Source: Brachybacterium kimchii
GTDB taxonomy: Bacteria; Actinomycetota; Actinomycetes; Actinomycetales; Dermabacteraceae
NCBI RefSeq assembly: GCF_023373525.1
Contig: NZ_CP097218.1
Span: 496,001 to 560,000, forward strand
Direction: 5' to 3'
Length of the DNA stretch: 64,000 nucleotides
The position numbers and the translations under genes were made by a program. Position 1 is the stretch's first letter, and each line of letters starts with the position of its first letter. This document shows positions 648 to 3,348 of the stretch, in pieces. The notes under the pieces were generated by a model. The model was not told where the DNA came from, did no database searches, and saw only the letters and a list, made by a program, of their open reading frames with translations.

Positions 648-1289
648 ATGAACGACACCGCCGTCCCCGCCCGCACCCTCGTCTTCATCGGGGACTCAAT
701 CACCGACGCCGGCCGTCGCGAGGATCCGGAGCACCTCGGGTTCGGATACGTGCGGCTGATCGCCGAGCACTTCGCGGCCCATGAGCCGGATGCGAGGGTG
801 CTGAACACGGGGATCGGTGGGAACCGCGTGCCGGACCTGGTGGCGCGGTTCGGTCCGGACTGCGTGGACCTCGCCCCCGACGTCGTCACCCTCTACGTGG
901 GCGTGAACGACACCTGGCGCCGCTACGACAGCGACGACCCCACCTCCGTGGAGGACTTCGAGGCCGGGTACCGCTATCTGCTCGACCAGCTCTCGGGCGC
1001 GCGGCCGGGCGTGCCCGTGCTGCTGATCCTCCCGTTCGTCGCCGATATCGACGAGGAGAAGGCCCGCTTTCACGAGGACCTCGCTCCCAAGGTCGCTCGC
1101 ATCCGGGCGCTCGCCCGCGAGTTCGGCCACCCCGTCGTGGACTCCGAGCACCTGCTGGAGCGCGCCTACGCCGCGGGCCACACCCCGGCGACCATCGCCG
1201 AGGACGGCGTGCACCCGACGATCGCGGGGCACCGCCTGCTGGCCGACGCCTGGCTCGAGGCCTTCGCGACGGTGGACCCGCGACGCTGA
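648..1289 (+). CDS. SGNH/GDSL-family hydrolase
   Basis: A 213-residue cytoplasmic esterase/lipase-like protein with no signal peptide. Block I is FIGDSIT with nucleophile Ser17. The oxyanion blocks are GIGGNR (about residue 57) and GVNDTW (about residue 86). The C-terminal Asp-x-x-His is in EDGVHPT near residue 190. All catalytic blocks are intact, unlike the second SGNH protein at 8983-9660. The length is usual for single-domain SGNH hydrolases acting on acyl or acetyl esters. It is monocistronic, convergent with the calpain-like gene and ends inside a shared terminator hairpin. Substrate unknown; similar proteins include acetylxylan esterases and rhamnogalacturonan acetylesterases. Confidence 0.85.
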   Translation: MNDTAVPARTLVFIGDSITDAGRREDPEHLGFGYVRLIAEHFAAHEPDARVLNTGIGGNRVPDLVARFGPDCVDLAPDVVTLYVGVNDTWRRYDSDDPTSVEDFEAGYRYLLDQLSGARPGVPVLLILPFVADIDEEKARFHEDLAPKVARIRALAREFGHPVVDSEHLLERAYAAGHTPATIAEDGVHPTIAGHRLLADAWLEAFATVDPRR

Positions 1290-1310
1290 CGCGGCCCGGC
1301 CGCCTCAGCG
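1284..1310. terminator. Bidirectional terminator containing both stop codons
   Basis: CGCTGA, C, GCGGC, loop CCG, GCCGC, C, TCAGCG form an 11-bp stem with one C-C mismatch. The stop codon of the SGNH gene (1287-1289) and that of the calpain-like gene (1305-1307 on the minus strand) are the two arms of the stem, so both convergent genes end inside it. There is no U tract, as is common in actinobacteria. Confidence 0.6.
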
Positions 1311-2111
1311 CAGCGGGCGGGCGGTGACGTCGATCGAGAGGAAGCCGCGGCGGAACGTCCGGCGGTCGACGACGAGCAGCTCGTCGGGCGTCCACGGGTT
1401 CCGCAGGGAGATCTCGCCCGTCGCCGGGTCGCATCCCACGATCGCCATCACGTGGTTCGCCGGCAGCGGCCCGCCCGCGGTCATCACGCGGGGCGAGAGC
1501 GGGTGGGTGGAGGCGAGCACGGCGCGCCCCTCGTCGAGCCATCCCCGCAGGCGGTCGGGGCGGGGGAGCAGCACGTGCGTGCGCGCGGGGATCCCCGCGA
1601 GCAGCTGGAGGCCGAACCGCCCGAGCCCCCGACCGAGCATCCGGTAGGACCCGGCGACATGGATCGCGGCGGCCTTCTCCACGAGGCCCGGCCATCCCGG
1701 TGCGTCGGCGGCGCTCCCGGGTGCGGATCCGGACCCAGACCCAGACCCAGACCCAGACTCAGTCTCGGCCCCGGACCGGGACTGGAGTGCGCCCACCCAG
1801 CGGCCCCGCGCGTCGACCGGCATCGCCCGATCGACCGCGATGCGCACGCGGCCCCCGCGCAGCAGGACTCCGACGCTGCTCGACCCGTCGTGCGCCCTGA
1901 TCATCTCTGCGACGCGCGCGGGCGCCGCCTCGTGGATCGCGAGCATCGCCGCCGCCACCCAGCAGTCGCCGAACGCGCCCTGGCGGGGACGGGCATCGAG
2001 GTCGAGCGCGGAGCCGTCGACGCGGAAGCCGACGCCCGCGGGGCCCGCGGACAGGACGCGCGCCCGCCGTACAGGGACGACGAGCGCGCGCAGCCGGCGG
2101 CGCCAGCTCAT
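1305..2111 (-). CDS. Calpain-like (C2-type) cysteine protease domain protein
   Basis: 268 residues. QGAFGDCWVAAAM (catalytic Cys50) matches the calpain box QGxxGDCW. Near the C-terminus, ANHVMAIVG supplies His220 and LRNPWT supplies Asn238, matching the calpain His and RNPW(G) boxes. The papain-fold triad is therefore complete in a minimal domain. There is no signal peptide, transmembrane segment or EF-hand, so it is probably cytosolic. Residues about 112-135 form an insert with (Ser-Gly)5 encoded by a hexanucleotide repeat, between the Cys and His lobes. It stands alone, with pfp ending 16 bases upstream of its start on the same strand only by position; pfp is transcribed into another direction-free gap and no operon is evident. 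Activity and substrate are unknown. Confidence 0.7.
   Translation of the reverse strand: MSWRRRLRALVVPVRRARVLSAGPAGVGFRVDGSALDLDARPRQGAFGDCWVAAAMLAIHEAAPARVAEMIRAHDGSSSVGVLLRGGRVRIAVDRAMPVDARGRWVGALQSRSGAETESGSGSGSGSGSAPGSAADAPGWPGLVEKAAAIHVAGSYRMLGRGLGRFGLQLLAGIPARTHVLLPRPDRLRGWLDEGRAVLASTHPLSPRVMTAGGPLPANHVMAIVGCDPATGEISLRNPWTPDELLVVDRRTFRRGFLSIDVTARPLR
1732..1761. repeat. Hexanucleotide repeat GACCCA x4 plus one variant
   Basis: Four perfect GACCCA copies (1732-1755) and a GACTCA copy lie inside the calpain-like gene. On the coding strand they encode alternating Ser-Gly. The unit is a multiple of three, so slippage would change linker length without a frameshift. Confidence 0.8.
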
Positions 2112-2127: not shown

Positions 2128-3348
2128 TCAGTGGGCTTCGACGGGCTCGACGTCCTGGCCGATGCGCGCCATCACCTCGCCGAACCAGGGCTGGGAGATG
2201 TCGAAGGCCTTGTGGCCGGCGATGCGCTCGAACTCGATCGCGCGCAGCAGATCGCCCCGCTCCTCGTCGTGCCCGATCACGCCGGTGCCGCCCTCGAGGG
2301 CGACCTGCACGGCGAGGTCCGTCATGGACTTGATGAGGCGCAGGTCCTCCGCGTTCGCCTTGGCCGAGCGCGAGAAGTAGCCGGACTTCTGCACCATGAC
2401 CTTCTCCGCGCCCAGGCGCTCCGCGAACTGCTTCGCGAACCACTGGCCGGGGTTGATGGTGTCGAGCTTGACGTGGCCGAAGGGGTCCTTCTCGGGCTCC
2501 TCGCCGCGCGCCTGCATCTCGGCGACGATCTCGGGGATACCCGCGCCCTCCGAGAGGAAGATGTTCACGCAGCCGGCCTCGTCCATGACGGCCTTGAGGC
2601 GCTCGGCCTCGCCCTCGATGTCGAGCTTCATCTCGGGCAGGAACACGGCGTGCACGTCCCAGCGCTCGGGCGTGTGACCGATGCCGGGCAGCCACTGCTG
2701 CTGGGCGTGCCACTGCTGGTAGTACTCGGCGGCCTGCGCCGTGAGGTATCCGCAGGAGCGGCCCATGATCTCGTGGATGATCAGCATGCGCGGGTTCGAG
2801 CCGTGCTCCGCGAGGACGTTCTGGGCGAAGACGCTGGTCTGCTCCGCGGCGGTCTTCGCGCCCAGGGACTGGCGGATCGGCACGATGTCGTTGTCGATCG
2901 TCTTGGGCAGTCCCACGACCTGCAGGTCGAAGCCGTTCTCGTGGAGATGCTTGGCCAGGTCCGCGGCGGTGGTGTTGGTGTCGTCGCCGCCGATCGTGTG
3001 GAGCACGTCCACGCCGTCGGCCTTGAGCTTGTTCGCGGCGACCTCGAGCGCGTCCTCGCCCTCCTGGATGAGGCCGCGCTTCACGAGGTCGGCGGTGTTG
3101 GTGAGCTTCACGCGGGAGTTGCCGATGGGGGAGCCGCCGTAGTTGTGCAGGATCCCGGCGTGCTTGCGCACCTCGTCGTCCACGACGATCTTCTCGCCGG
3201 AGAGCAGGCCCCAGTAGCCGTGCTTGTAGGCGATGATCTCGACGTCGGGCACGAGCTCGGTGTAGCGCTCGATCAGTCCTCCCACGGCGGAGGAGAGGCA
3301 GGGGGCGTAGCCGCCGGCGGTGAGCAGTGCGACGCGCTTGATCGTCAT
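2128..3348 (-). CDS. pfp: Pyrophosphate-dependent 6-phosphofructokinase
   Basis: 406 residues. It catalyses the reversible phosphorylation of fructose 6-phosphate with PPi instead of ATP (EC 2.7.1.90) in cytosolic glycolysis/gluconeogenesis. The donor-site sequence is GGDDTN (about residues 119-124); the second Asp marks PPi use, where ATP enzymes have Gly. The catalytic loop is PKTIDNDI. MGRSCGYLTAQAA and FLSEGAGIPEI complete the long-type PFK fold. The start has AAGGA at a good distance (GAAGGACCTGACCC before the ATG). It sits downstream of hisN on the same strand with a gap of 139 bases, so it may have its own promoter. Confidence 0.93.
   Translation of the reverse strand: MTIKRVALLTAGGYAPCLSSAVGGLIERYTELVPDVEIIAYKHGYWGLLSGEKIVVDDEVRKHAGILHNYGGSPIGNSRVKLTNTADLVKRGLIQEGEDALEVAANKLKADGVDVLHTIGGDDTNTTAADLAKHLHENGFDLQVVGLPKTIDNDIVPIRQSLGAKTAAEQTSVFAQNVLAEHGSNPRMLIIHEIMGRSCGYLTAQAAEYYQQWHAQQQWLPGIGHTPERWDVHAVFLPEMKLDIEGEAERLKAVMDEAGCVNIFLSEGAGIPEIVAEMQARGEEPEKDPFGHVKLDTINPGQWFAKQFAERLGAEKVMVQKSGYFSRSAKANAEDLRLIKSMTDLAVQVALEGGTGVIGHDEERGDLLRAIEFERIAGHKAFDISQPWFGEVMARIGQDVEPVEAH

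Follow-up and report, generated by a model that had tools for sequence, protein, structure and literature searches.

The window, i.e. the whole stretch of 64,000 nucleotides analyzed here, encodes a protein of 268 residues that belongs to the calpain family (peptidase family C2) and consists of the peptidase domain only. Its gene has a fixed place behind a phosphofructokinase gene and is vertically inherited with natural losses, and the protein has no calcium ligands of the classical type; these three findings are new. We favor, with moderate confidence, the view that the protein is a cytoplasmic, calcium-independent calpain-type cysteine endopeptidase which makes a limited cleavage of a substrate.

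Gene, family and predicted fold

The sequence-only reading had placed a minimal calpain-like protease at 1305-2111. An open reading frame is present at this position; its strand had to be corrected to minus, with the ATG at 2111 and the stop codon ending at 1305. The plus-strand reading of 1305..2111 was rejected as an unrelated arginine/proline-rich frame. The length of 268 residues and the numbering Cys50, His220 and Asn238 were correct, and all three motifs named earlier were found. The peptidase gene, its parts and its two neighbors are as follows.

1305..2111, minus strand: single-domain calpain-family (C2) cysteine peptidase, 268 aa (Pfam, profile, AlphaFold model, fold comparison)
2073..2111, minus strand: N-terminal basic segment (MSWRRRLRAL...), with W3, R4, L7 and L10 nearly invariant and low model confidence
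1959..1982, minus strand: QGAFGDCW motif, residues 44-51, with putative oxyanion Gln44 and nucleophile Cys50
1701..1760, minus strand: low-complexity linker ESGSGSGSGSGSAPGSAADA, residues 118-137, a strain-specific loop before the W..EKA helix
1434..1460, minus strand: ANHVMAIVG motif, residues 218-226, with putative general-base His220
1389..1406, minus strand: LRNPWT motif, residues 236-241, with putative third triad residue Asn238
2128..3348, minus strand: pyrophosphate--fructose-6-phosphate 1-phosphotransferase, 406 aa (NCBIfam NF005121, 724 bits)
648..1289, plus strand: GDSL-type hydrolase, a convergent neighbor conserved on the far side of the peptidase gene in most Brachybacterium loci

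The linker is short or absent in relatives. Part of this Gly-Ser stretch is encoded by a GACCCA hexamer array of 5.2 copies (window 1732-1762), which is nearly absent in relatives and may vary in length from strain to strain.

A Pfam scan identified Peptidase_C2 (PF00648) as the sole domain above cut-off (25.3 bits versus 23.8). This single-sequence match is weak when taken alone; PF00648 matched all 32 of 32 orthologues, with a best E-value of 2e-14. Gln44, Cys50 and His220 are invariant in the 32 aligned orthologues; at position 238, 27 of them have Asn and five have Asp. Asp is accepted as the third triad residue in functional C2 peptidases, e.g. yeast PalB (Rawlings 2015, PMC4631099). The order Cys, His, Asn with a Gln ahead of the Cys is that of family C2. 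A search of the PDB with the single protein returned linker noise and weak calpain matches only, and this was resolved by the orthologue profile: among solved calpain cores it matched human calpain-1 (E-value 2.7e-12) from the Cys motif through the Asn motif, a span that contains the calpain hallmark W..LEKA.A...GSY. Hence, the earlier description of a minimal, single-domain member of the calpain family with its catalytic residues kept was borne out by Pfam, profile and orthologue alignment. Pfam found no EF-hand, transmembrane, secretion or other domain, in agreement, for the EF-hand and membrane domains, with the sequence-only reading. The NCBIfam search gave no meaningful family for the peptidase, and PADLOC (E-value 0.01) gave no anti-phage defence model for it or its two neighbors.

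An AlphaFold model built from the orthologue alignment (pLDDT 86.7, pTM 0.84) was poorly defined only at the N-terminal 20 residues and in the linker region, and showed the topology of a calpain core. With this model as query, the best 38 Foldseek matches were all calpains (best E-value 1.5e-9). In VIA-align, the top 24 rows were calpain cores with Z-scores from 19.8 to 11.4, the best being the inhibited calpain-1 core with 225 residues aligned at an rmsd of 2.8. The protein thus shares with the core (PC1-PC2) of human calpain-1, -2 and -3 the predicted fold, the Cys-His-Asn triad, the oxyanion Gln and the W..EKA..GSY region at about 20% identity. The first non-calpain was staphopain with Z 10.1 over 143 residues; staphopain and papain-type peptidases belong to the same papain-like superfamily and have the same order of triad residues, but they lack the calpain-specific region. 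Another papain-like fold without calpain topology, which had been named as the outcome that would speak against a calpain, therefore did not win. Since motif, profile and fold matches all favor calpains, the protein is calpain-family and not merely papain-like, and we regard this assignment as solid.

The model scored higher against cores in inhibited or calcium-bound form (Z 18.8-19.8) than against the full-length structures 1df0, 1kfx and 1u5i (Z 13.7, 14.0 and 15.3), which we take to be calcium-free. This difference weakly suggests a pre-assembled catalytic site; the active-like arrangement of the half-domains is weak evidence because AlphaFold tends to yield a single closed conformation.

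Calcium sites and substrate cleft

Calpain-1 Asp106, nine residues ahead of the catalytic Cys, aligns with Arg41 of the C2 peptidase, and Glu185, two residues ahead of the Trp of W..LEKA, aligns with Pro138, which is invariant in the orthologues (we assume the usual calpain-1 numbering of the calcium ligands). Calcium site 1 is therefore gone. The part of the core beyond the triad Asn has 28 residues in the C2 peptidase versus 58 in calpain-1, i.e. about 30 fewer. According to the definition of the calcium sites in the calpain core, site 2 falls within this stretch, and site 1 is retained by only some bacterial homologues (PMC4631099). With the ligands of site 1 replaced and the site-2 stretch shortened, classical calcium control appears unlikely from the alignment, as anticipated by the earlier claim that control must differ from that of classical calpains. 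The C2L and penta-EF-hand domains of classical calpains were likewise not found by Pfam in the 268 residues.

Furthermore, Arg161 and His203, invariant or nearly so in the orthologues, replace Gly207 and Ile252 of calpain-1, and Thr202 occupies the place of Ser251. These calpain-1 positions presumably border the substrate cleft; substrate specificity therefore probably differs from that of calpain-1.

Distribution, selection and gene neighborhood

The genome carrying the window (4.35 Mb, two contigs) has a B. subflavum contig as its nearest match. Among 396 sampled genomes of the order, orthologues scoring 292-429 bits were found only in Brachybacterium and Dermabacter/Helcobacillus records, and the next best proteins fell to 90 bits. 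A clear orthologue is present in 32 of the 38 Brachybacterium genomes, including that of the window. The remaining six are G001 and G003, both incomplete assemblies without a match; G006 and G020, with weak or contig-cut matches only; G029, with a broken gene (L067); and G035, a clean loss, in which the flanking genes face each other across a gap of about 80 bp. The loss in G029 is recent, since the neighboring proteins are about 98% identical to those of the window. In G034, the copy (L060) has no usual in-frame start codon upstream of the core and carries an in-frame TGA between N-terminal segment and core. At this place, no peptidase gene was found in four further genera of the family. Within Brachybacterium and Dermabacter, inheritance of the gene is vertical, with natural losses.

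Between close intact pairs, dN/dS of the peptidase gene was 0.14-0.33. In every comparison, the phosphofructokinase, HisN and AroA genes gave lower values; the broken copy gave 0.65 against the window. The gene is thus under purifying selection, yet evolves faster than its neighbors and is dispensable. Because it is absent, broken or missing in some genomes and genera and has a dN/dS above that of its neighbors, its role is accessory and not essential.

Brachybacterium homologues of this kind were already published in 2015, which lowers the novelty implied by the sequence-only reading. Rawlings (2015, PMC4631099) described a protein of 258 residues from Brachybacterium faecium as the shortest bacterial homologue, and the B. 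faecium and B. paraconglomeratum proteins as the most divergent members, with a peptidase domain only as in the protein studied here. These are other species, and the long Gly-Ser linker is found in the window strain. Among the orthologues are the B. paraconglomeratum protein, under a named record (L079, which is the contig of L046), and one of 258 residues (L056); the published homologues are therefore very probably the same gene. In that paper, the occurrence in bacteria was treated as sporadic and read as scattered transfer, an inference that does not fit the near genus-wide, syntenic distribution; the phosphofructokinase was not mentioned. No functional study of the short Brachybacterium C2 group was found in the literature searched, and Brachybacterium is not mentioned in a later survey on calpains of cyanobacteria.

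The phosphofructokinase gene lies directly upstream of the peptidase gene on the same strand with a gap of 16 bp. The order AroA-RsgA-HisN-pyrophosphate phosphofructokinase-C2 was found in all 35 loci, i.e. the window and 34 fetched ones, with gaps between the last two genes of 4-52 bp in Brachybacterium, except G034, whose copy has lost its start, and of 78-155 bp in the Dermabacter group. No terminator-like site was found between the two genes; a promoter scan found no sigma-70-like site, such a scan being uninformative in DNA of this high GC content. Gene order and spacing suggest that the peptidase gene is probably co-transcribed with that of the phosphofructokinase.

Individual loci showed irregularities. 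L059 has two aroA copies and an rsgA that is divided into two pieces, by duplication or assembly fault; in L057, both the phosphofructokinase gene and the GDSL gene are distributed over two frames, possibly through sequencing errors. Elsewhere in the order, a DAHP-synthase-like ORF often comes after the phosphofructokinase gene instead (by inspection), as in L102, L103, L104 and L108 from other families. A conserved link between glycolysis and the shikimate pathway through this gene pairing is possible.

In a tree of 48 catalytic domains, the Dermabacteraceae proteins formed one clade (100/100), which joined stand-alone C2 proteins from a different genus of the same order (L147, L149, L152-L155, L159, L167, L173 and L174), apart from the WXG100 types (97/90). 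Where their surroundings were read, these relatives are encoded between a secreted-protease-like gene and the adk-map-rpsM-rpsK-rpoA region (by inspection), with no phosphofructokinase match within about 8.6 kb. As they sit elsewhere, the link to phosphofructokinase is not general.

Additionally, the genome of the window encodes two C2 proteins with WXG100-like N-termini, at L069:10000-11226 and L068:9242-10504 (about 3.27 and 3.24 Mb of C1), the WXG100 match in L069 being weak; an EssC-like ATPase gene is located at C1:260426. As judged from these features, both proteins are likely type VII substrates. Next to the L068 C2 gene lies one that encodes a Fic-like HPFTDGNGR motif.

Function

In the mechanism we propose, Gln44 would form the oxyanion hole, Cys50 would be the nucleophile and His220 the base, completed by Asn238 or, in some orthologues, Asp; this site would lie between two half-domains predicted to be arranged already as in active calpain. 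The short cationic N-terminal segment, possibly a docking or membrane-contact helix on a flexible tether, probably recruits the peptidase to a partner or surface. Its level would follow the phosphofructokinase operon via probable co-transcription. The protein is likely intracellular, as the sequence-only reading had proposed; the regulatory role named there is a possibility. Twin-arginine export was considered because of the WRR near the N-terminus and rejected; after the arginine-rich N-terminus, the next hydrophobic stretch has at most about six residues (by inspection).

A conserved neighbor had been suggested as a way to the target, and the phosphofructokinase is such a neighbor. The peptidase might trim or degrade this enzyme or a factor bound to it and thereby tune glycolytic flux, and the position directly downstream, mostly with short gaps, would fit. 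However, the surrounding AroA, RsgA and HisN genes and, in most cases, the GDSL gene are conserved as well, so that the adjacency may be merely inherited; the enzyme is also conserved in genomes without the peptidase, and the sister clade is located elsewhere. Gene order was therefore rejected as proof of a functional tie and is a lead rather than evidence for a target, and no literature linking this phosphofructokinase to proteolysis was found. We consider such a dedicated processing or regulatory protease improbable, and quite doubtful the more specific proposal of a family-specific, calcium-independent calpain co-expressed with and acting on the pyrophosphate-dependent phosphofructokinase or its complex. 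If true, the latter would place a point of proteolytic control in glycolysis and provide a first function for such bacterial calpains.

Export through the type VII secretion system, as an effector or lytic enzyme, is suggested by the two WXG100-calpain proteins and the EssC-like ATPase gene of the same genome. Such proteins, known from Actinobacteria, share the C2 catalytic domain but differ in their WXG100-like N-terminus and probable export; Pfam found no WXG100 domain in the window's C2 peptidase, and the tree separates the stand-alone clade from them, which makes this explanation unlikely. Thiol-acyl transfer other than proteolysis, e.g. amidase or transpeptidase chemistry on a C2 fold, has a precedent within the papain-like superfamily in phytochelatin synthase, a non-protease that was among the second-rank fold matches of the model, and Arg161 and His203 indicate a different cleft; the best sequence and fold matches are nevertheless all endopeptidases, and we judge this chemistry very doubtful. 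Least probable, in our opinion, is a decaying relic without present function. Fast evolution, broken copies in two species, a clean loss in one and the repeat-expanded linker of the window strain could be read in this way, but the retention in 32 of 38 genomes of the genus, the invariant catalytic residues and a dN/dS well below 1 in intact pairs, as compared to the broken copy, argue against it.

We therefore return to the cytoplasmic, calcium-independent endopeptidase as the preferred reading. Hardly anything is known of what bacterial calpains do, and their patchy distribution had been attributed to repeated horizontal transfer. The Brachybacterium group combines stable vertical inheritance, a fixed neighborhood, natural loss mutants, absent calcium sites and culturable hosts; therefore, the role of a minimal calpain and its calcium-free control are directly testable in these bacteria.
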